Assembly: GCF_000196615.1 (NCBI RefSeq)
Contig: NC_014306.1
Location: forward strand, 3,224,001-3,288,000
Length of the DNA stretch: 64,000 bases
DNA from: Erwinia billingiae Eb661
GTDB taxonomy: Bacteria > Pseudomonadota > Gammaproteobacteria > Enterobacterales > Enterobacteriaceae
Direction of reading: 5' to 3'
Under the pieces are notes generated by a model, which was not told the origin of the DNA, searched no databases, and worked only from the letters and a program-made list of their open reading frames with translations. This document shows positions 4,719 through 57,133 of the stretch, piece by piece; position 1 is the stretch's first letter, and every line of letters begins with the position of its first letter. The translations under genes were made by a program, and so were the position numbers.

Positions 4719-5005
4719 GATTCAGCCTCCCCATAGCATCAACCGTTCTGGGTTGAACCACAGGGAAACTTCGCGCATTGCGAGAGCTGTTCTTACATTG
4801 GGAAACGGACTGGCAGGAGTGGGTGAAAGTGGTGCCTGCCGCGGCGCCGTAGTCATCACGCTGGCGAATACCGGCGTGAACTGGAGTAATAAAGTGTAGC
4901 CCCATCAATCTTATCCTCAACATAGCACGTCCGTGCGTGCTAAAAGCGACTATCTATCCGGTTCTGGACCGGCCTCTTAAATGCGAATGTGTTTTCTGCA
5001 AAAAA
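4719..5005 (-). promoter_or_regulatory. Leader region of puuP with a possible 65-codon upstream frame
   Basis: About 290 bases separate the puuA terminator from puuP. On the minus strand a frame opens with ATG at 4905, preceded by GAGG nine bases upstream, runs 65 codons and stops at 4708-4710, eleven bases inside puuP. A short inverted repeat AGCACG/CGTGCT (4925-4942) lies just before it. The predicted peptide resembles nothing I know and has no signal sequence. It could be chance, or a leader coupled to puuP translation. I found no clear promoter here. Confidence 0.3.
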
Positions 5006-5031
5006 ATAACCGGCGCATAAGCGTCGGTTAT
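5000..5031 (-). terminator. Rho-independent terminator of puuA
   Basis: An 11-base stem with one mismatch, ataaccggcgc (5006-5016) against gcgtcggttat (5021-5031), loop ataa. On the minus strand it is followed by a run of six T residues. It lies about 120 bases after the puuA stop. Confidence 0.85.
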
Positions 5032-5151
5032 AGATTCATTTTGCAGGGCGCATATTCTGCACCAGACGGAGGCAGGATGACAAGAGGTTAAGGCCTTCAG
5101 TGACAATTTCTTTGCTTGTGGGTGGTTTGCGTCATCTTAGTGGCTCTCCCG

Positions 5152-14127: not shown

Positions 14128-14175
14128 ATGACACGCGTTCAGTTCAACCACCATCATCACCATCACCCTGACTAG
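14128..14175 (+). CDS. hisL: his operon leader peptide
   Basis: A 15-codon peptide, M-T-R-V-Q-F-N then six consecutive histidines, P-D and TAG. Ribosome stalling at the His codons when charged tRNA-His is scarce favours the antiterminator and lets transcription reach hisG. E. coli has seven consecutive histidines and otherwise almost the same sequence. AGAGAATTTT precedes the ATG. Confidence 0.97.
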   Translation: MTRVQFNHHHHHHPD

Positions 14176-14238
14176 TCTTTCAGGCGATGTGTGCTGGAAG
14201 ACGAGTAGGATCTTCCAGTGGTGCAGAACGCAAGAGAA

Positions 14239-14273
14239 GCCCCCGGAAGATCACCTTCCGGGGGCTTTTTTTT
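14239..14273 (+). terminator. his attenuator terminator
   Basis: A perfect 11-bp stem gcccccggaag (14239-14249) and cttccgggggc (14255-14265), 5-base loop, then eight T residues. It lies 63 bases after the hisL stop and 78 bases before hisG, the attenuator position known in enterobacteria. Confidence 0.95.
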
Positions 14274-25106: not shown

Positions 25107-25946
25107 TTAAAACAATTTCCAACCGTTTTTATTAAAAAACTTAATCATTGAGCTGGTAAATAATGAGATATGTTTCAAACCTTTTCTTGAAGCATTACCA
25201 CCATGGTGAACAACTTCAACAGTAGGAACATAGGCTATCTTTGTGAGCTTAGCAGCACGGTAACTAAGATCGGTGTCTTCAAAATAAAGGAAATAACGCG
25301 GATCAAAACCCTTCAAATCCAGTAGTACGCTATTACGAAATAACATGAAACAACCACTAACAATGGGAGGTTGCCAAAATACCTTGTCGTCAGAAATTTC
25401 GTCCACCATGCTATATTTTCGAAGACGTGATTTTAAGAATTTCCTTACGAAGTTAGGCGCAAAACCCCGTACTAATAATGTGAAAGCATCTGGGTAATTT
25501 TTGCACAGGTATTGCTGCTCACCATTTCGCCACCTAGCCAGGGGAGTGACAAGACCACAATCATGATGCAACGACATAAATTCGATGGCATTGACTAAAG
25601 AATACTCAGAAAGGATTATATCCGGGTTAAGAATGAGGTGATAATCAGCATTTTCTGTAAGAGTAAGGTTATGCGCTTTTCCATAACCAATATTAGCACC
25701 GGTTATAATAACCTGACAAAATGAATATTTTTCTTCGATCTGGATGTGATGAGTATTCTTTGTTTTAAAACCATTCTCGACAATAATCACTTCTAACTTA
25801 GTATTTGAGATATTTTTAGCTGATAATACAATGGACTCTAATAAGCGGTCAATATCATCATCAATATAAAAAGTAACTACAGAAATACGAAGGCAAGTCC
25901 GTAAATCTTGAAATGAAGAGTCGTCATTCAATGAAGTTTCTTTCAT
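25107..25946 (-). CDS. GT2 glycosyltransferase, rhamnosyltransferase-like (WbbL type)
   Basis: A 279-residue GT-A enzyme. The donor-site strand is LRISVVTFYIDDDIDRLLES near residue 19, then LEVIIVENGFKTKNT, the motif GANIGYGKAHNLTL near 83, NPDIILSE as the metal motif near 110, and YFLYFEDTDLSYRAAKL near 218 with the catalytic-base region EDxD. This pattern is common in rhamnosyltransferases of O-antigen clusters. It is last in the O-antigen operon and overlaps the previous transferase by four bases. dTDP-rhamnose from the rfbABCD enzymes of the same operon is the likely donor. Acceptor and linkage not known. AT-rich codon use. Confidence 0.75.
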   Translation of the reverse strand: MKETSLNDDSSFQDLRTCLRISVVTFYIDDDIDRLLESIVLSAKNISNTKLEVIIVENGFKTKNTHHIQIEEKYSFCQVIITGANIGYGKAHNLTLTENADYHLILNPDIILSEYSLVNAIEFMSLHHDCGLVTPLARWRNGEQQYLCKNYPDAFTLLVRGFAPNFVRKFLKSRLRKYSMVDEISDDKVFWQPPIVSGCFMLFRNSVLLDLKGFDPRYFLYFEDTDLSYRAAKLTKIAYVPTVEVVHHGGNASRKGLKHISLFTSSMIKFFNKNGWKLF

Positions 25947-26839
25947 TTTAATACGTACTTTCCCGATTTATTAGAAAAACCATGAAAAATGCCATAAAGA
26001 ATCGCTTTGAAAACTTTGATGCGTCCCGGTGACAACATTAACAATAATGTTAACTTAGCTGCTAATTTAAATGCATCAACAAGTTTCCAGCTTTTAGAAA
26101 TATATGGCCGCTTATAAAGTAGAAGTGCATTCCGGACCATGTAATAATACCTTTGAGGAGAATGCACAGCAATTTTACGCCTTAACACATTTAAATGAGC
26201 ATCACCTAAGGTATGAAACATACGGGCTGAGAAAAGCCCATAGGATCGAAATCCCATAGAGCGTGCACGTAATGCCCATTCGATATCGACATAATCAATA
26301 AATAATGATTCATCCATGAAGCCCACTCTGGATAGATGCTGGATGGGAATGAGTGAACCAGATGCAATGAGATGATCGACCTCAACGAGATTTGGGCTAT
26401 CACTGGATGACATTTTGACAATTTTGAGTCGTTCCAGACGTATGAAACGAGACCGGGTTTTATGTTCATCATCAATAAAGTTAGGACCAATTGCAGCCGC
26501 ATCAGGAAGTTCATTGAGAGCTTCCAACAATTTATAAACCATATTACTTTCTGGTAAGCTATCCTGGTCCATAAGAAGAACATATTGGAAATTCTGCTGA
26601 ATGGCGATTTCAATACCCCGATTTTGTGCATAAGCAATACCGAAGTTATTTTCAAGTTTCATCAGCGTAACTCGAGTGCCATACTCACGCAGTCCTATAC
26701 TTAAATCTTCACTATTTACCGAACCATTATCAATAACTAATACATCTACATTCTCATCCAGAAGTCGATCTACTTGTCGGCAGACCTGGCTTACCAAGGG
26801 TTTCCATGTAACGGTTATGGCTAATATTTTCCCATTCAC
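25943..26839 (-). CDS. GT2 glycosyltransferase, rhamnosyltransferase-like (RfbF type)
   Basis: A 298-residue GT-A enzyme with KILAITVTWKPLVSQVCRQ at the start, DVLVIDNGSVNSEDLS, LENNFGIAYAQNRGIEIA near 66, the metal motif LMDQDSLPES near 90, and FIDYVDIEWALRARSMGF near 192. It resembles the RfbF/TIGR01556 rhamnosyltransferase group. I chose GTG 26839, because AAGGA lies nine bases upstream; the TTG at 26848 sits too close to that site. A terminator-like hairpin separates it from the large multidomain gene before it, so expression may depend on RfaH-mediated read-through. Likely donor dTDP-rhamnose; linkage unknown. Confidence 0.78.
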   Translation of the reverse strand: MNGKILAITVTWKPLVSQVCRQVDRLLDENVDVLVIDNGSVNSEDLSIGLREYGTRVTLMKLENNFGIAYAQNRGIEIAIQQNFQYVLLMDQDSLPESNMVYKLLEALNELPDAAAIGPNFIDDEHKTRSRFIRLERLKIVKMSSSDSPNLVEVDHLIASGSLIPIQHLSRVGFMDESLFIDYVDIEWALRARSMGFRSYGLFSARMFHTLGDAHLNVLRRKIAVHSPQRYYYMVRNALLLYKRPYISKSWKLVDAFKLAAKLTLLLMLSPGRIKVFKAILYGIFHGFSNKSGKYVLK

Positions 26840-26849
26840 TAAATTCAAT

Positions 26850-26876
26850 CCTTAAAAAAGGGCCAAAGGCCCTTTT
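26850..26876 (-). terminator. Terminator-like hairpin inside the O-antigen operon
   Basis: aaaagggcc (26856-26864), 3-base loop, ggcccttttt (26868-26876 region); on the minus strand it is followed by TTTTTTAAGG. It stands right after the stop of the 1189-residue gene and before the two rhamnosyltransferase-like genes. Confidence 0.8.
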
Positions 26877-26877
26877 A

Positions 26878-29800
26878 TCAGTGAGTTGAAAGATATATAT
26901 CAGCTAACTCTTCATATTGTTCGTCAAATGAACGAATGTGTGAGTGCGGGAGAAGAACAGATTCGTCTTTAGGCATCAGCTTGAAATGTTCAATAGTTTC
27001 AAGAATTGCTTTCTTTAAATTTTCAGCATCGTTATCGAAGGGTATGATCAATCCATTTTGGCCAGGCATGATATCCTCAGGCGCACCGCCAGCATCTGAT
27101 GTAATAACCCAAACATTCCTGATAAGCGCTTCACGGACCGTTAGGCCAAAGCTCTCTTTAGATTGCGTTGGATAAAGCAGCACGTCTATGCCGTCATAAA
27201 AATCGTCCATAGTTTCTTGCGTGAACGCAGGAATGACCTTATGGTTTTTGAAATTAACAAGATCGTGATTATTGAAGGATGCATAACCAAGATTTAAAGT
27301 ATTATCAACAATAGTTATCTGCGCACTTTCAGCTGGGATTGATTTAAAAGCGGATTTAATCAAATGGAAGCCTTTGATATCAGTGTTTCCCCCTACATAT
27401 CCAAAGCGGACTATGGACGGGGCCTTCCTTTTTATTTCAGCTTTAGGTAAATTGACACCATTCTTATTCAATATTGCCTTTGCGAAGCCTTCATTTTTAT
27501 ATAACCCTTCGGTGAAAACACTTGGAGTTAATATTTTCGAAGCTAATAATAACGCTTTTCTTTTTTTCATCACATAGTAACTGTTACTATGCTCATCCGG
27601 TGAAGAATTTGAAAGAGCATGGTTAAATATCCCACGTGTCTTATGCTTATTGTCATAGCTAAGTATAAATTGGTGATCATACAGCCACCAATAGTCGTGA
27701 GCTGTAACGCTAATTTCTATGTTTTGCTGGGCACAAATTTCCAGCATTGAAATACCCAAGCCTTGAATAGAATGGAAATGAACCAAATCTGGTTTAACAA
27801 TTTTCAAAATCTCAATGAATGCTTCATCAATATTATTGTTAATTACCTGGTTTTGTTCAGGAAGATAATTCGGTAAGCCAATTCCATAACATTCATGACC
27901 TAAGACACCATAACGACGCACTTGATAAGGTGTCGCATATTCTTCTGAAAGCGAAGTTAAGACATGGATATTTATTTTTTGATTGTCATCAAAACGTTTA
28001 TTCATTTCTTCAGCAACAATTGTCGCACCGCCAAAAGACCGTGGATTATAGAAGCAGTTTACTGATAGTACATTTTTAACTGTTGATTCATTATGTAAAC
28101 GTTCAAAACCACCAACTATCTTCTTAACCTGGTCATTTGCAACACTTTCAGGGGAATAATGATTCATTACAGAAGTTTTGGCGCTTTCGCCTATCAACTT
28201 ACGTAAGTCAGAATTGTTAATTAATTCTGACAAAGCAGCAAACCATTCATTATCTGATTCGCATAGGAAACCATTCTTTCCATGTTCGATGACACGGCTG
28301 AATGTAGGCCTTGGGGAGCATATGCTTGGAATTGCGAGAATGGAAGCTTCTATAAATTTGATATTACTTTTTGAGTAGTTAAATACATAGTCTTCCAGAG
28401 GGGCAAGGCTAATATCGCACTCGGCAAGTACTTTAAGGTAATCTTTATAAGCACACAATCCGACACGTTCAATTTGTGAATGAACTTCATCGAAGCTTTC
28501 TGGGAGGTCTAACATACCTACCAAACGGAAATGAACGTTTTTATTTTGTTTGAGAATACTCAATATTGCATCAGAGGCTTCAAGAAAATCTATATTATGT
28601 GTCGTCGTTCCAGATCCATAAACGATACGAATGATACCATCTTCATCGCTTTTTCGACCCGGTAGGATTTCTTGAGCAGTTATTATTGTTTCAGGATCGA
28701 GCGCGTTTTCAACAACATAGGCATGCTTAGCTCCTGCCGCAACCATCGCCTCAGCAAGATCTTGGGTTGAGGCAATAGCCCCAGAACATTTCAACATGGC
28801 GCGCTTATAAAGTTCGGCACCTTCTAGTAAGGCTTTATAAGTATGCTCGTCAAGAGCCTGCAAGGTTTTACTTTCGCGTAGAATGTCAGCATCGAAGATA
28901 AGATCATCTACCTCCCAAAGAGTAGTGAGATTCAATCGTTCACATTCATCAAATACAGGGTCAACACTATCATAACCTGGCACACGGTAAAAAATCACAA
29001 GTGAGTGTGTTTGCAATGCTTCAATACACTCGTTTTGATGTGTCCAGTCCATAACAGTCGCGGATATACCCAGTTTTTTGAATAGCTCAACCTTTTGGTC
29101 TACCCTATACTTGCGACATTGCGGTATTGATAACTCGGCAATAATCAGGACCTTTGGTACAAGAATTTTTTCAGCAATAACACTCACTGCCTGAAGATTT
29201 TTACGCTCAACGATTATTGAAGCTTGATGCAATTTATTGACATATTTTAGTTTACTAACTATCCCATGAATACCATTACTTTGATAAATCACTTTTGCCC
29301 GTTGAAAACTGCGGCTAAAACCATAATTTTTATACACTCGGGTGGCGACTTCGATACCCTTCCTGACATATCTTAACTGGGAGATTAATTTACGTATAGG
29401 AGATGTAATTTTCCAACTGGATGAAGTAAGTAACGCATGATTATCATGAGACAAACGATGAATTAGATGGTCATTATCAGCTATTTTTTTATAATTTTGG
29501 TCAAGTTCTTTTCTCAAAATATCTTCAATACTTTTGAAGTATAAAACATCACGATTTAGTTTTTCAATTGATGCTTCGAGATTTTTCCTTTCATTAATGT
29601 GCAGTATATTACTTTCATTAAGACGTGCCCATTCCATTTCAGGAAAGGTAGGTAAATCACTGTATGGATTATTAATTTGATTTTGTGGGATATTCAGCGT
29701 GCCATTAATTTCCTTATGGCCTTGAACAACTAAATCCTCTTCTCCAGACACAACTCTTTTACCAAGAACATTTTCATCCTTAATCATTTTTCGAATTATA

Positions 29801-30447
29801 CATAAAGAATTTACGAACTGAACAGAATGGATTTGGCTATAATCGACTTGATCAAATTCAGAGCAATCATAATGTTCATAAAAAGGCTTTAAATACGTAC
29901 TTTCTGACTTTTGAATTCCCCAATGTTCATAATTAGGAATGTCTGCGAGTTTTTTCAGGAAAGACATCGAGGAGTATGGGTCGTAAAGACCACCTTCAAA
30001 ATTTTCCCAATAACTACAGTGCAAATCCTCTATAATATAATAGCCATTCTCTTCTATCATAGGGAAATAAAGTAAAAATGACTTAATGATATCAGAAGAG
30101 TTATGTGAACCATCGTCAATGATTACGTTGAAACTCGATGAAATATCAGCTATTTTATTTTTTGCATTTTGAGTAGATGAGTCATCGATAACCACTTTGA
30201 TTTTATCATTATTATATTCAAGCAATGCGCACTTCTCATTAATATCGCATCCAACGATATTCCTGGCATTAGGAAAATATTTATCCCAGATCTCAAGAGA
30301 GCCGCCGTTCTGAACACCAATTTCTAAAAAATTAATAGCCGACGATTGGAGATGTGACAGTGTTTCATGATAGGTTTCAAGATAGATGGACCACTTATCA
30401 GAAGATTTCCCTACATGCTCATCATAAAGTTCAAATAAAGTTTTCAT
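26878..30447 (-). CDS. Multidomain O-antigen protein: methyltransferase, coiled coil, two GT4-like glycosyltransferase domains
   Basis: An 1189-residue protein. Residues 1-220: class I SAM methyltransferase (INFLEIGVQNGGSLEIWD at 38-55, IIDDGSHNSSD at 109-119, YYIIEDLHCSYW at 136-147), of the group that acts on sugars in macrolide and cephalosporin gene clusters. Residues about 275-335: charged heptad-like helix, probably coiled coil, then SSSWKITSPIRKL (342-354). Residues 432-785: first GT-B domain with WEVDDLIFD at 511 and SNIKFIEASILAIPS near 694. Residues 791-1189: second GT-B domain with GGATIVAEEMN, SVTAHDYWW, RFGYVGGNTDIKGFHLI and ESFGLTVREAL. It overlaps wzt by four bases. Likely role: builds the O-antigen chain and caps it by methylation, with Wzt recognising the cap; this is inference. 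AT-rich. Confidence 0.78.
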   Translation of the reverse strand: MKTLFELYDEHVGKSSDKWSIYLETYHETLSHLQSSAINFLEIGVQNGGSLEIWDKYFPNARNIVGCDINEKCALLEYNNDKIKVVIDDSSTQNAKNKIADISSSFNVIIDDGSHNSSDIIKSFLLYFPMIEENGYYIIEDLHCSYWENFEGGLYDPYSSMSFLKKLADIPNYEHWGIQKSESTYLKPFYEHYDCSEFDQVDYSQIHSVQFVNSLCIIRKMIKDENVLGKRVVSGEEDLVVQGHKEINGTLNIPQNQINNPYSDLPTFPEMEWARLNESNILHINERKNLEASIEKLNRDVLYFKSIEDILRKELDQNYKKIADNDHLIHRLSHDNHALLTSSSWKITSPIRKLISQLRYVRKGIEVATRVYKNYGFSRSFQRAKVIYQSNGIHGIVSKLKYVNKLHQASIIVERKNLQAVSVIAEKILVPKVLIIAELSIPQCRKYRVDQKVELFKKLGISATVMDWTHQNECIEALQTHSLVIFYRVPGYDSVDPVFDECERLNLTTLWEVDDLIFDADILRESKTLQALDEHTYKALLEGAELYKRAMLKCSGAIASTQDLAEAMVAAGAKHAYVVENALDPETIITAQEILPGRKSDEDGIIRIVYGSGTTTHNIDFLEASDAILSILKQNKNVHFRLVGMLDLPESFDEVHSQIERVGLCAYKDYLKVLAECDISLAPLEDYVFNYSKSNIKFIEASILAIPSICSPRPTFSRVIEHGKNGFLCESDNEWFAALSELINNSDLRKLIGESAKTSVMNHYSPESVANDQVKKIVGGFERLHNESTVKNVLSVNCFYNPRSFGGATIVAEEMNKRFDDNQKINIHVLTSLSEEYATPYQVRRYGVLGHECYGIGLPNYLPEQNQVINNNIDEAFIEILKIVKPDLVHFHSIQGLGISMLEICAQQNIEISVTAHDYWWLYDHQFILSYDNKHKTRGIFNHALSNSSPDEHSNSYYVMKKRKALLLASKILTPSVFTEGLYKNEGFAKAILNKNGVNLPKAEIKRKAPSIVRFGYVGGNTDIKGFHLIKSAFKSIPAESAQITIVDNTLNLGYASFNNHDLVNFKNHKVIPAFTQETMDDFYDGIDVLLYPTQSKESFGLTVREALIRNVWVITSDAGGAPEDIMPGQNGLIIPFDNDAENLKKAILETIEHFKLMPKDESVLLPHSHIRSFDEQYEELADIYLSTH

Positions 30448-31778
30448 TGAATTCCCAACTTTACATCATTAAATTTAATACCAACCAGTCCCCAGCGAAC
30501 ATCACTTGAAGAAACATTTATTATTACTGCATCGTGAAGCCAGTGATGTTGAACATGATTATTTATGTCACCATCTGCTAGTGAGATCATCATGGCGTAT
30601 TCGCCATTTGGAAGCATCGGCAGCACAAAGTTGTATTCGGCATAAAAATGACTTCCCGCCGCTACCTCAGTTGGATAGTCATTAGTATAAGGCAATGTAT
30701 TCTCGCCAAATAGCACTTGCCCAAGTCGATCTTTCACCAAAAAGCCTATGATTGGAGACGAAAGCGTTTGGTGAGCAAGGGCGTCAATCCGTAGTTTTAC
30801 TCTCTCTCCACCTTTAAACACATGGATACTCTCTCCAGACTTTTCGTCTATGAAAGATGTGGCAACAATCTCACCATGTCCAGTTTTCCAGCCATTGGCC
30901 ATGGACAAATTATTTTCAATTCCATATTGTGAATGATAATTTATGTGGTCACTGTTGTCCTGTATCTCTGCGGCATCTTCACTGTTTTCAGCTTCAATTA
31001 CTTCATTTCTAACGCTCTCTAACTTGGTATCGTCACCATAGGTTTCCTGCAATGTATACTGCAGATATTTCTCAGCAATATCTTTTGCTTTTCCAGAGGT
31101 AACCATTTCACCTTTATGGAGCCAAATAGCTTTATCGCATAGATTTATTACCGAGTTCGCATCATGGCTGACGAAAAGCAGAGTGCCATTTTCTTTGAAC
31201 TTGCGTATAAAACGCATACATTTCTGTGTGAAAACAGCATCGCCTACGGCTAAAGCTTCATCAACAACAAGAATATCTGCGTCTACATGCGCAATGACAG
31301 CAAAGGCAAGACGCACATACATTCCGCTGGAATATGTTTTAACAGGCTGGTCAATGTAATCACCAATATCTGCAAACTCTAAAATACTTTGATAGCGAGA
31401 TCGAATTTGTTCATTGTTAAGTCCATACAAAGACGCTGCCATAAAGATATTTTCATGGCCCGTAAATTCAGGATTAAAACCCGCGCCCAATTCTAATAAA
31501 GCCGCAATTTTACCCTTGACTTTAACTTCACCATCTGTCGGTGTCAGCGTTCCGCAAATCATCTGTAATAAAGTTGATTTACCAGAACCATTTCGTCCAA
31601 TAATACCTACCGTTTCACCTTTTTTCAGGCTGAAAGAAACTTGTTTTAATGCCCAAAACTCTCGATAGAGTTTTCGCCGGCCACGGTAAAACATTTGAAA
31701 TAGACGATCTTTTGGCGTGTTGTAAATCTGGTAACATTTACTCAGCCCTGTGATTTCAATGATATTATCAGATGACAT
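30444..31778 (-). CDS. wzt: O-antigen ABC transporter ATP-binding protein Wzt with C-terminal carbohydrate-binding domain
   Basis: A 444-residue protein. Residues 1-250 are the nucleotide-binding domain: Walker A GIIGRNGSGKSTLL near 57, signature VKTYSSGMYVRLAFA near 146, Walker B DILVVDEALAVGD near 170, and the H-loop FVSHD. An acidic linker (about 255-300) leads to a beta-rich C-terminal domain (about 305-444) of the Wzt_C type, which in E. coli O8/O9a binds the capped end of the polymer. The start is ATG 31778, with AGGGG upstream, overlapping wzm by eleven bases; a longer frame from 31835 would lie inside wzm. It powers export of finished, lipid-linked O-antigen across the inner membrane with Wzm. 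Confidence 0.93.
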   Translation of the reverse strand: MSSDNIIEITGLSKCYQIYNTPKDRLFQMFYRGRRKLYREFWALKQVSFSLKKGETVGIIGRNGSGKSTLLQMICGTLTPTDGEVKVKGKIAALLELGAGFNPEFTGHENIFMAASLYGLNNEQIRSRYQSILEFADIGDYIDQPVKTYSSGMYVRLAFAVIAHVDADILVVDEALAVGDAVFTQKCMRFIRKFKENGTLLFVSHDANSVINLCDKAIWLHKGEMVTSGKAKDIAEKYLQYTLQETYGDDTKLESVRNEVIEAENSEDAAEIQDNSDHINYHSQYGIENNLSMANGWKTGHGEIVATSFIDEKSGESIHVFKGGERVKLRIDALAHQTLSSPIIGFLVKDRLGQVLFGENTLPYTNDYPTEVAAGSHFYAEYNFVLPMLPNGEYAMMISLADGDINNHVQHHWLHDAVIINVSSSDVRWGLVGIKFNDVKLGIQ

Positions 31779-32586
31779 CTGCAAACCCCTTGCGAGTTCT
31801 CTGGAACCAGTAGAAACCAAACCAGCAAACCACACTACTAAGAACCATTCCTTTGATCCAAGGATAGATTTCCGGGATTCGTCCCCAATACATCACTTCC
31901 CTAGTCTGCTCAATAAAATGCGCTAAAGGATTAAGTAAAAGTAACGAGCGTGCTTCAGGAGGCAGAGCAGAGGTAGGGAAAAATATGGGTGAAAGGAACA
32001 TAAGTACCATGGTGATAATACCTACTAATTGACTAACATCCCTCAAATAGACACCCAATGAAGCAAGTAACCAGCTCATTCCCATTGTCATTAATATCAA
32101 CGGTAACAGAACAAAAGGCAGAAGAAGCAATGTTACATGGGGCATTCCAACTTCAAAAATATAAAAAACCAACCATACAATGCAACTAATCAAAAAATGA
32201 AAAAGTGCAGCCCCCATGTTGACCCATGGTAATATCTCCAATGGAAATATCACTTTTTTTACATAATTTGAATTTGCTATGATTGTAGAAGGTGCTTTGT
32301 TTATGCATTCTGAAAACAAGTTGAAGATAATCAAACCCGAGAATAAAACTAAAGCAAAAGCTGACTTAGAAGTGTGACCTTCACTCCATTTGGCCTGAAA
32401 TACCACACTAAATACAAATGTATAAACAACTAACATTAAGATCGGTGTGAAAAAAGACCATAATAGACCAAATACAGATCCTCTATAACGACTAATGACC
32501 TCACGCTTCGTTAACGTATAAATTAAACGCTTGTTTTTATATGCACTCGATAATAAATCAACTGACGTTTTCACTAAAACACTCAT
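31768..32586 (-). CDS. wzm: O-antigen ABC transporter permease Wzm
   Basis: A 272-residue ABC-2 type membrane protein with six predicted membrane segments. KREVISRYRGSVFGLLWSFF near residue 27 is the amphipathic gate helix and first segment typical of this family (TagG, KpsM, Wzm). It exports undecaprenyl-diphosphate-linked O-polysaccharide with Wzt. It overlaps rfbC at its start by four bases and wzt at its end by eleven. Presence of this pair means that the polymer is finished in the cytoplasm, so no Wzy polymerase or Wzz is needed for it. Confidence 0.93.
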   Translation of the reverse strand: MSVLVKTSVDLLSSAYKNKRLIYTLTKREVISRYRGSVFGLLWSFFTPILMLVVYTFVFSVVFQAKWSEGHTSKSAFALVLFSGLIIFNLFSECINKAPSTIIANSNYVKKVIFPLEILPWVNMGAALFHFLISCIVWLVFYIFEVGMPHVTLLLLPFVLLPLILMTMGMSWLLASLGVYLRDVSQLVGIITMVLMFLSPIFFPTSALPPEARSLLLLNPLAHFIEQTREVMYWGRIPEIYPWIKGMVLSSVVCWFGFYWFQRTRKGFADVI

Positions 32587-33128
32587 TCGAAAACCTCAGC
32601 ATTTTTAAACTCTGATGCTAGTAGGTCCTTATCGGAAAGCAGCACATCTTCAGTTTTCCAATCGATACCGATTTCAGGATCATTCCAAAGAATAGATCTT
32701 TCACTATTCTTAGCATAATAATTTGTTGTTTTATAAACAAACTCTGCTGTATCACTCAACGTCACGAAGCCATGAGCAAAACCTTCAGGAATCCATAACT
32801 GCCGCTTATTTTCAGCATTTAAAATCACACCTACCCATTTGCCAAAACTAGATGAGCTTTTGCGTATGTCTACTGCAATATCAAGCACTTCCCCTTGAAC
32901 ACAACGGACCAACTTACCCTGAGCATCTGGGTCTAATTGATAGTGGAGCCCACGGAGTACGCCCTTAGCCGATTTGGAATGGTTATCCTGCACAAAATTG
33001 ACGTGACGACCAACCGATTCATCAAAAAATCGCTGGCTGAAGCTTTCAAAAAAGAACCCACGCGTATCACCAAATACAGTAGGTTCAAAAATCAGGACAT
33101 CAGTTAGTGATGTTGTGATAACTTTCAT
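32583..33128 (-). CDS. rfbC: dTDP-4-dehydrorhamnose 3,5-epimerase
   Basis: A 181-residue cupin enzyme (RmlC), third step of dTDP-L-rhamnose synthesis. Seen: FGDTRGFFFESFSQRFFDE near 19, VRGLHYQ-type sequence in GVLRGLHYQLDPDAQGKLVR near 55 with the catalytic His, VLDIAVDIRKSSSSFGKWVG, and IPEGFAHGFVTLSDTAEFVY near 115. ATG 33128 with AAGGG upstream is preferred over the frame start five codons earlier. Order in this operon is rfbB, rfbD, rfbA, rfbC, all on the minus strand. Confidence 0.95.
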   Translation of the reverse strand: MKVITTSLTDVLIFEPTVFGDTRGFFFESFSQRFFDESVGRHVNFVQDNHSKSAKGVLRGLHYQLDPDAQGKLVRCVQGEVLDIAVDIRKSSSSFGKWVGVILNAENKRQLWIPEGFAHGFVTLSDTAEFVYKTTNYYAKNSERSILWNDPEIGIDWKTEDVLLSDKDLLASEFKNAEVFE

Positions 33129-33158
33129 ATAATTACCCTTCAAAAAGCAAGCAGGAGT

Positions 33159-34034
33159 TTATTTTTTAATTAACCCTAAGATATATTTACCATAACCATT
33201 TTTTGCATAAGGTTTGGCTAATATTTCCAACTGCTCAGTGCTTATGAATTTTTGCCGCCATGCAATTTCTTCCAGGCACGCAATTTTCAACCCTTGACGA
33301 TGCTCGATTGTTTGAATGAAATTACCTGCTTCAATCAAGCTTTCATGAGTCCCAGTATCAAGCCACGCAAAGCCTCTACCCATAGTTACTACAGATAGCT
33401 TTCCTTTTTCGAGATAGGCCTGATTTACATCTGTAATCTCAAGTTCACCCCGCGGGGAGGGTTTCAAATTTTTTGCGATTTCGACAACGCTATTGTCATA
33501 GAAATAAAGCCCAGTAACAGCATAATTACTCTTTGGCTTAGCCGGTTTCTCTTCAAGAGAAATTGCTGTTCCTTCACCATCAAACTCTACTACCCCATAA
33601 CGCTCAGGGTCCGTTACGTGATATGCAAATACTGTTGCACCATCTGTTTTCTTTTTAGCTGCATCAAGTTGAGGAAAGAGATCGTGACCATAGAAGATAT
33701 TATCACCAAGTATCAATGCGCAGTTATCTTCTCCAATGAACTCTTCACCCAGAATGAAAGCCTGAGCTAATCCGTCAGGACTTGGCTGTACTTTGTATTC
33801 AATGGTTATGCCCCATTGTGATCCGTCACCCAACAGGCTTTCGAAGCGAGGCGTATCCTGTGGTGTGCTGATGATTAGAATATCACGGATCCCCGCAAGC
33901 ATTAGTGTACTCAGCGGGTAATAAATCATTGGCTTATCATAGATAGGCAGCAATTGCTTACTCACAGCCATAGTTACCGGATAAAGCCTTGTTCCGGAAC
34001 CGCCCGCTAAGATAATGCCTTTATTCTTCGTCAT
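33159..34034 (-). CDS. rfbA: Glucose-1-phosphate thymidylyltransferase
   Basis: A 291-residue nucleotidyltransferase (RmlA), making dTDP-glucose from dTTP and glucose 1-phosphate; first step of dTDP-rhamnose synthesis. Motifs: [20 protein letters not shown] at the N-terminus with the catalytic Arg, [15 protein letters not shown] near 26, [14 protein letters not shown] near 104, and [20 protein letters not shown] near 158. ATG 34034 was chosen; a TTG five codons upstream is possible. It lies between rfbD and rfbC. Confidence 0.95.
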
Positions 34035-34084
34035 AATGCTTTGCACCAATTTAACAGCATCTTCTGATGCCGGTTTTTTAGAAT

Positions 34085-34972
34085 TTATCCGATGATTTCC
34101 GTGAGCATCCGCTCTACGCCGTCATGCCAGTCAGGAAGCGTTAAGCCAAAACTCTGCTGGAATTTAGCCGTATCCAGTCTGGAATTGGCTGGTCGCTTAG
34201 CCGGGGTAGGAAATGCCGAAGTGGCCACTGGATTGATTTTGTTGACCTTCAACCCCAGTCCTTTCTCACGCCCGGTAGTAATAACAAATGAAGCGTAGTC
34301 ATGCCAGGTGGTCGTGCCGCTGGCAATCAGATGATAAATGCCTGAAAGCTGTGGCTCCCCTTTCGCTTTGCGAATAGCGTGCGCCGTGCAATCTGCAATC
34401 AAGTCTGCGCCGGTTGGGGCACCAAACTGATCGTTGATGACCGAAAGCTCTTCTCTGTCCTTAGCCAGCTTAAGCATCGTTTTGGCAAAGTTGTTGCCCT
34501 TAGCGGCATACACCCAACTGGTGCGGAATATCAAATAGTTGCTACAAGCCGCTGCAATGGCTTCTTCACCATCACGCTTGGTTTTACCATAAACACTGAG
34601 CGGTTCGGTCACGTCGGCTTCTGTCCAGGGTTGCTCACCCTGGCCATTAAAGACATAGTCTGTCGAATAATGTACCAATAACGCCCCAACTTCTTCCGCC
34701 GCGGCAGCCATTGCAGCTACGGATGAGGTGTTAAGCACAGCAGCAACTTCAGGTTCAGACTCGGCCTTATCAACCGCGGTGTGTGCGGCTGCGTTGACGA
34801 TCACGTCCGGTTTAATCGCTAAAATGGTGGCGGCGATGCCTTCGGCATTGGAGAGATCGCCACAATAGGTCGTTGAGTGACGATCCAGAGCGATAAGCGT
34901 GCCCAGCGGTGCTAAGGCTCGCTGTAACTCCCAGCCAACCTGACCATTTTTACCGAGTAGAAGAATCTTCAT
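34085..34972 (-). CDS. rfbD: dTDP-4-dehydrorhamnose reductase
   Basis: A 295-residue short-chain dehydrogenase (RmlD) giving dTDP-L-rhamnose with NAD(P)H. Cofactor motif [19 protein letters not shown] at the start, [17 protein letters not shown] near 55, [11 protein letters not shown] near 102 and the Tyr-Lys pair in [16 protein letters not shown] near 123. It overlaps rfbB by one base. Codon use is GC-richer than the transferase genes downstream, as is common for the conserved rml genes. Confidence 0.95.
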
Positions 34973-36051
34973 TAATCACGCTTCTCGTAGTTTTGTTCAA
35001 TCCAACTCTGATAGGCACCGCTTTTGATGTTATCGATCCATTCATTATTGGTCAGATACCACTGGACGGTTTTACGCAGACCACTTTCGAAGGTTTCCTG
35101 CGGTTTCCAGCCAAGATCCTTCTGGATTTTGCTGGAGTCGATAGCATAGCGGCGGTCATGACCTGGACGATCGTTCACATAGGTGATCAAATCGGCATAG
35201 CGACCTTCAGTTGGCTGAAGCTCGTCCAGCAGCGCGCACACAGTCTGAACCACTTCGAGATTCTGTTTTTCATTATGGCCACCAATATTATAGGTGGTGC
35301 CCACTTCGGCTTCAGTGACCACTTTGTACAGCGCGCGCGCATGATCTTCAACATACAGCCAGTCACGGATCTGGTCGCCTTTACCGTAGACAGGCAATGG
35401 CTTTTTCTCCAGCGCATTGATGATAATCAGCGGGATTAATTTTTCCGGGAAATGGTAAGGACCGTAGTTGTTAGAGCAGTTGGTGATGATCACCGGCAGC
35501 TTATAAGTGCGTCCCCAGGCTCTGACCAGATGATCGCTGGCCGCTTTGGTTGAGGAGTACGGGCTGCTTGGTGCATAAGGCGTGGTTTCCGTAAACAACG
35601 GCAGCTCACCGCTCATCTCATCGGGATGAGGTAAATCGCCATACACTTCATCGGTGGAAATATGGTGGAAACGGAAAGCCTGTTTTTTCTCATCGCTAAG
35701 CGTGTTCCAGTACTGACGGGTTGCTTCCAGCAAGGTATAGGTGCCTACCACGTTGGTCTGAACAAAGTCAGCAGGTCCGGTGATGGAGCGGTCAACATGG
35801 CTTTCCGCAGCCAGATGCATAATGGCATCCGGCTGGGTTTCGTTCATCACTTTGCTCAATCCGGCGCCGTCACAGATATCCAACTGGAAGAACTGGTAAC
35901 GCTCACTGTCGCTGACATCTTTAATGGATTCAAGATTGCCCGCATAGGTCAACTTATCCACGTTGATTACGGAATCCTGCGTATCTTGAATGATATGCCT
36001 TACAACTGCTGAACCAATAAAGCCAGCGCCACCAGTGATCAAAATCTTCAT
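34972..36051 (-). CDS. rfbB: dTDP-glucose 4,6-dehydratase
   Basis: A 359-residue extended short-chain dehydrogenase (RmlB), second step of dTDP-rhamnose synthesis. NAD motif [37 protein letters not shown] near 82, [13 protein letters not shown] near 130, and the catalytic Tyr-x3-Lys in [17 protein letters not shown] near 165. First gene of the O-antigen operon; about 250 bases of leader with a JUMPStart/ops element precede it. Confidence 0.97.
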
Positions 36052-57094: not shown

Positions 57095-57133
57095 CACGCT
57101 ACCGCCCCTGGCTTGTAGCTGCCAATGCGCTGT
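57095..57133 (-). promoter_or_regulatory. JUMPStart / ops element upstream of the EPS operon
   Basis: On the minus strand GGCGGTAGCGTG (57106-57095) preceded by AGCCAGGG and GCAGCTACAA, a full JUMPStart. Nineteen bases around the core (ggcacgctaccgcccctgg) are identical to the element in front of rfbB. It lies 219 bases upstream of amsG. Confidence 0.95.

Follow-up and report, generated by a model that had tools for sequence, protein, structure and literature searches.

The 64,000-nucleotide stretch of Erwinia billingiae Eb661 DNA analysed here (NC_014306.1, 3,224,001 to 3,288,000; hereafter the window, in whose positions coordinates are given) contains a wzm-wzt-rml O-antigen-type cluster, in the order rmlB, rmlD, rmlA, rmlC, wzm, wzt, a long gene and two GT2-type glycosyltransferase (GT) genes, flanked by galF/galE and gnd. 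The genes described below all lie on the minus strand. The long gene probably encodes a one-chain O-polysaccharide polymerase and terminator with a coiled-coil ruler, beside a Wzt that reads the chain's cap.

The long gene (26878..30447) is a single uninterrupted frame of 1189 codons that overlaps wzt, directly upstream, by four bases; its product was delimited from the list of open reading frames (ORFs), full-length relatives and a structure model. Residues 1-229 (29761..30447) form a class I S-adenosylmethionine (SAM) O-methyltransferase (MT) nearest to the sugar O-methyltransferases SpnK and MycE, and D112, H115 and D141 align with MycE residues that have metal or base roles. The candidate ruler (residues 260-345; 29413..29670) runs from an NPY linker motif to an anchor Trp345, a spacing of 85 residues or twelve heptads plus one, with the coiled coil itself spanning about residues 269-340. 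Next come an SSSWKITSPIR motif and the helices following it (residues 342-410; 29218..29424), presumed to anchor the protein to the membrane or a complex; the model places these helices C-terminal to the coil at 343-375 and 377-410. The succession of catalytic terminator, coiled coil and putative anchor is that of WbdD. The chain ends with two GT-B domains, the first of GT4 type (residues 430-781; 28105..29160), in which only the second glutamate, E700, is invariant and residue 692 is serine, and the second (residues 789-1189; 26881..28083) with E1098-x7-E1106 invariant across 50 aligned rows. Both match Pfam models of GT-B group 1, so the pair is not a GT2-GT2 polymerase of the Klebsiella O7 ORF6 type. 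The chain terminator of WbbB is a GT99 3-deoxy-D-manno-oct-2-ulosonic acid (Kdo) transferase, and the N-terminal module here is a methyltransferase instead.

Directly upstream, wzt (30444..31778) encodes an ATP-binding cassette (ABC) transporter ATPase with a C-terminal carbohydrate-binding domain, the predicted cap-reading Wzt_C (30480..30896; PF14524, E 1e-31, 110.3 bits against a cut-off of 30.4), and is preceded by the ABC-2 permease gene wzm (31768..32586). An earlier note made from these letters alone had placed a methyltransferase, a coiled coil and two GT-B domains in one chain, coded directly after such a Wzt with a four-base overlap; the ORF list and the PF14524 match bear this out, with domain limits now refined to those above. 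A frameshift or misassembly joining separate genes, which the note had named as a danger, was rejected: the gene is intact, full-length relatives argue against it, and the order wzm-wzt-gene-GT2-GT2 recurs in other loci. We likewise rejected a kinase concealed in the chain, since none appears among Pfam matches to the 1189-residue protein up to E 0.01. Family matches of the whole protein fall mostly in its last domain, so that further families may be present.

The coil was examined across relatives, taking the best 120 each of 864, 1307 and 2198 matches (350 in total) together with the window protein and five proteins from the loci described below, a non-random set. An alignment of 50 sequences with the MT gives 88 to 194 residues (standard deviation 20.3) between the MT's end and the SxSW motif, and 83 to 111 (standard deviation 3.7) between that motif and the first GT. 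From the linker motif (N-x-aromatic) to the SxSW tryptophan, 184 of 211 proteins have a length of 7n+1, with n from 5 to 23; for want of an anchor 145 of the 356 proteins were left out, in nine cases because just the linker anchor was missing. The heptad signal was first seen on alignment anchors and the linker anchor was chosen afterwards. At an intermediate stage, with the MT and SxSW motif as anchors, one of the seven length classes held 114 of 209 proteins, and low p-values also appeared at some other periods in unthinned sets, period seven standing alone in the set thinned to below 70% MT identity. With the linker anchor, thinning by MT identity left 35/43 (below 70%), 6/7 (below 60%) and 4/6 (below 55%) at 7n+1.

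Disjoint nearest-neighbour pairs that differ in length do so by a multiple of seven in 39 of 56 cases, where chance predicts eight, and among periods 3 to 14 an excess was found only at seven and its double. With the register set by the motif tryptophan and left unfitted, Leu, Ile, Val, Met or Phe occupy 81% and 51% of positions at two core phases and 10-13% at the others. Together the 7n+1 lengths and this core pattern establish that the segment is a real coiled coil whose two ends are mostly kept in phase. It has twelve heptads in the window protein, eleven in its plasmid form, eight in locus L053 and six in L046. Taken alone, the window coil gave a modest 0.0105 by shuffling in a heptad test, and its modelled helix covers about ten heptads of the segment's twelve.

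Whole-heptad steps might also arise by slippage of repeats in the coding DNA, with no selection on coil phase. Some coils do contain visible 14-residue repeats (P0029, for example), but the 7n+1 rule persists where repeats are scarce (57/70 proteins with coil self-identity below 0.2, 22/30 below 0.15), and the commonest step is a single heptad (14 of 56 pairs), so that slippage seems a doubtful explanation. That the window coil would measure chain length is argued from WbdD, where insertions into or truncations of the coil shift the modal chain length (PMC5082667; this and the other papers are cited from excerpts). A literature search on heptads in O-antigen coils returned that one review, whose excerpts describe insertions and truncations in WbdD and no natural heptad steps; on that search alone, we think that a natural ladder of heptads is unreported.

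The modules on either side of the coil occur in other combinations. Among the best 120 of 864 relatives, 58 carry the MT by BLAST, 14 are roughly the GT pair alone, and 48 have a different N-terminal part. Seven of the last group were scanned with Pfam, giving a PIG-L deacetylase with GT2 (P0058), other methyltransferases (P0061, P0070, P0081), a sulfotransferase (P0084), GT2 (P0108) and nothing at threshold (P0099). The modules of P0058, P0084 and P0108 may be other chain terminators mounted on the GT4-GT4 pair. A Neisseria-named protein (P0113) is also among the 120 relatives. Conversely, the same MT type precedes GT2-type domains in L047; in L053 it is a protein of its own ahead of glycosyltransferase genes of WbsX and RgpF type, and in L046 and L054 it is again on its own, ahead of separate genes that resemble the GT pair weakly at most.

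That the GT4-GT4 pair is found with other N-terminal modules leaves some room for an arrangement in which one or both GT4 domains add adaptor or side-chain sugars and GT2 proteins build the polymer. Two GT2-type genes do lie downstream, a rhamnosyltransferase above its family cut-off (25943..26848; TIGR01556, 222.6 bits against 200.55), which we regard as a probable adaptor or accessory GT, and a second GT2-like gene (25107..25946). GT4 enzymes are retaining, and the presence of rml genes suggests dTDP-beta-L-rhamnose as donor; from this family knowledge we predict beta-L-rhamnose linkages, which are less common and to that extent favour the GT2 genes as polymerases. On the other side, these are the only two further GT genes in the cluster, the number that an adaptor would need, and characterised systems of the same layout polymerise with their C-terminal GT modules (PMC11231755). 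We consider a GT2 polymerase unlikely.

Further comparative evidence concerns MT and Wzt_C, the putative writer and reader of the cap. Besides the window, the MT directly follows a Wzt with Wzt_C in five distinct loci: L009 (one cassette in five plasmid records), L053 (two records), L046, L047 and L054, of which L009, L053 and L054 share the four-base overlap of wzt and the MT gene. Identity of these loci to the window is 50-70% for Wzt_C, 45-68% for the MT, 55-91% for the nucleotide-binding domain (NBD) and 23-77% for Wzm; in L054, from Rhizobium, Wzt_C is 53% identical and Wzm just 23%. For comparison, Wzt_C was found in 12 of 177 genomes of a family search, one being the window's own, and no MT match was seen in the stretches opened around the other 11 Enterobacterales loci, where identity to the window is 13-34% for Wzt_C, 45-65% for the NBD and 27-51% for Wzm (six compared).

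The reciprocal search, starting from Wzt_C, gave the same division. Across 34 plasmid records the MT accompanies all eight Wzt_C at 50% identity or more and none of the 26 below; in genomes, both matches at 55-57% carry it, and none of the four loci opened from nine matches at 24-46% does. One locus, L052, has a GT pair 41-54% identical to the window's with no MT, and its Wzt of 244 residues lacks Wzt_C. On sequence evidence, MT and Wzt_C are thus co-inherited, Wzt_C identity tracking MT presence. A metagenomic ORF, P0273, joins the MT type, the start of the coil and Wzt_C, a possible writer-reader fusion, although as a single ORF it could be an artefact. Two plasmids of Comamonas and Azospirillum (L098, L099) carry a Wzt_C 42-43% identical, followed by an overlapping annotated SAM methyltransferase gene without a BLAST match to the MT; these are perhaps other writer-reader pairs.

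The best solved match to the window Wzt_C is the Wzt domain of Aquifex aeolicus (E 1.1e-7), which binds 3-O-methyl-mannose; the O antigen of that species carries 3-O-methyl rhamnose or mannose at its end (PMC9445017). When its pocket residues, with their published roles (PMC9445017), are mapped onto the window domain, the equivalents of Leu300, Arg304 and Trp362 are kept and those of Thr346, Ala348, His350 and Met353 are changed.

What sequence or model establishes, namely the order of domains, the fold classes, the register of the coil, the coupling of the genes and the co-inheritance of MT and Wzt_C, frames the mechanism that we propose. The two C-terminal GT4 domains would lengthen a lipid-carried chain containing rhamnose while the coiled coil holds the N-terminal MT at a distance from them. 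Once the chain reached the MT, its non-reducing end would be O-methylated, most likely at the 2-OH or 3-OH of rhamnose, and growth would stop. The upstream Wzt would then read the methyl cap through Wzt_C and start export through Wzm. Here we infer the donor, the linkages, the position and chemistry of the cap, the oligomer state and the control of length.

Several observations weigh against this proposal. Heptad phasing demonstrates a coiled coil, as would be expected of any such structure, and not the measurement of length, and the coil model is a monomer of modest confidence. Of the six MT-linked Wzt_C (the window counted), four keep the tryptophan that stacks on the methyl group in the A. 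aeolicus domain and two, those of L053 and L054, replace it; other methyl-pocket residues differ. Methylation by WsaE, a comparable enzyme of Geobacillus stearothermophilus, was independent of chain length in vitro in the excerpted account (PMC2943079). Lastly, among 13 other distinct loci opened that carry the MT type, five have a Wzt beside it and eight, with an MT 30-44% identical to the window's, have no Wzt in the stretch opened, which points to the MT-coil unit also working outside ABC export; the loci opened came from 10 of 34 plasmid MT records and all six genome matches other than our own. These eight loci speak against a universal link with Wzt_C, whose co-occurrence the earlier note had proposed to check. 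An MT that methylates internal residues or the adaptor, with the coil a docking scaffold setting no length, would suit the phasing, the eight loci and the WsaE result, but is quite improbable given the coupling in both search directions, the joint absence of MT and Wzt_C in L052, and the 2-O-methyl group on the terminal rhamnose of the WsaE glycan (PMC2943079).

A single-chain polymerase and terminator that caps the chain by methylation stays our preferred reading. We see about even chances for a wider one, in which MT, coil and Wzt_C would make up a portable writer-ruler-reader module moved among polymerases (GT4-GT4, GT2-GT2, WbsX/RgpF-type and separate GTs), its ruler evolving mostly by whole heptads (5 to 23 seen), so that a phase-locked rod would fix bacterial glycan length in discrete steps.

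Upstream of wzm lie rmlC (dTDP-4-dehydrorhamnose 3,5-epimerase; 32583..33143), an rmlA-type nucleotidyltransferase gene (33159..34049), the rmlD reductase gene (34085..34972) and the rmlB 4,6-dehydratase gene (34972..36051), rmlA and rmlB each being 69% identical to annotated plasmid rfbA and rfbB. Between 25 and 34 kb the G+C content falls to 35-41%, compared with 49-57% on either side, which fits horizontal transfer of the cluster. Elsewhere in the window, Rfam matches mark a His leader (14151-14273, plus strand), an STnc240 small RNA (4998-5070, minus strand) and a JUMPstart element (57095-57132, minus strand).

Plasmids of E. coli and Enterobacter cloacae carry a similar cassette (rmlB, rmlA, rmlD, rmlC, wzm, wzt, long gene, GT2, GT2), with an identical four-base wzt overlap and a long protein 57% identical to the window's. 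Despite this distance, the same 17-nucleotide perfect hairpin ends both genes: AAGGGCCTTTGGCCCTT lies directly 3' of the window gene's stop codon (26858..26874, minus strand), before a run of T residues and the two GT2 genes, is single-copy in the genome as an exact 17-mer, and recurs after the E. coli plasmid relative (L008, 18546-18562). It is possibly an intra-operon attenuator. Whole or partial rhamnose O-antigen-type cassettes sit amid insertion sequences in plasmids of E. coli, Enterobacter and Klebsiella (L008, L009, L010, L011, L053); that of L011 is near macrolide-resistance genes and has its wzt split over two open frames.

Close relatives are rare in the samples searched. Of 143 plasmid records with a match of any kind, five cover at least 80% of the query, and similarity to the cluster in E. 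coli genomes was limited to the rml genes among the matches listed. The whole-protein search hit 1 of 295 genomes in a family sample, which is the genome of the window itself; in an order sample (E 1e-20) it hit 5 of 295, the four others matching in the GT part only; a GT-pair alignment hit 4 of 369 genomes in a class sample and 10 of 398 in a phylum sample. Each count includes our own genome, and the first look of these scans scores few candidates, so misses are possible. A scan of genome contigs added three distant GT pairs whose matches begin C-terminal to the MT. A viral origin was rejected: a scan of viral contigs with the GT-pair alignment yielded no confirmed relative, and the five phage matches listed (81 records) have at most 27% query coverage at 23-28% identity.

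Knowledge of chain length control in exported glycans rests on few experimental cases, WbdD and WbbB. In one family the terminator and anchor motif are shared and the span between them runs from 5 to 23 heptads, which makes the ruler model testable on natural proteins; if the module reading is true, nature also offers graded rulers from which the length gained with each heptad could be measured. The link between terminator and Wzt_C suggests that the Wzt domain may allow the type of cap to be predicted, an aid in reading O-antigen clusters of unknown structure, plasmid-borne ones included. The case for ruler and cap-reader is now stronger and more testable than from the window sequence alone.

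The earlier note had set this protein against the E. coli O8/O9a systems, where WbdD combines MT and coil and WbdA is a dual-GT polymerase. The proposal of a single-chain polymerase, terminator and ruler has since gained comparative support from Wzt_C tracking the MT and from the heptad lengths, but the novelty implied by that contrast lacks support. Those systems do differ in using two proteins and a mannose polymer, and O9a WbdD also has a kinase; the absence of a kinase, correctly noted, is no departure from O8, whose WbdD is described as a simple methyltransferase (PMC3482155). The A. aeolicus WzmWzt, which holds the best solved match to our Wzt_C, binds a methyl-capped end; its sugars are D-sugars. 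Literature searches on capped Pantoea rhamnan and on plasmid-borne O-antigen clusters gave nothing relevant among the matches listed.

Proteins of the window protein's kind are already known, because WsaE, Klebsiella O7 ORF6 and Klebsiella O12 WbbB each unite the building and the ending of the glycan in a single polypeptide (PMC2943079, PMC11231755). WbbB places polymerase, coil and terminator in one polypeptide, but with three GT modules of families GT99, GT102 and GT103 (PMC11231755). ORF6, from another ABC-dependent O antigen, has a terminator, a coiled-coil ruler and two C-terminal rhamnosyltransferase modules, but its terminator is a methyltransferase plus kinase making a methylphosphate cap, its modules are GT2 and a third GT is a separate protein (PMC11231755). 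WsaE, from G. stearothermophilus NRS 2004/3a, has an N-terminal O-methyltransferase and two rhamnosyltransferase domains with a role in chain ending by 2-O-methylation (PMC2943079, PMC3898925), and its setting shares the rml genes and the stop/start overlaps of wzm, wzt and wsaE (PMC2943079). The same layout, MT and then two GT domains coded directly after wzt, recurs in the window protein, a likeness drawn from published description. Genes named wsaE are also reported among the conserved glycosyltransferase genes of group 3 capsule clusters in E. coli (PMC10433991). WsaE differs in serving a Gram-positive surface-layer glycan, whose alpha-1,2 and alpha-1,3 linkages suggest inverting GTs acting from dTDP-beta-L-rhamnose, whereas the window's GT4 domains would be retaining. 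The window protein is thus an MT-only, GT4-GT4 version of the known single-chain builders and terminators, in which an O8-like methyltransferase and coil are joined to a GT4-GT4 pair.

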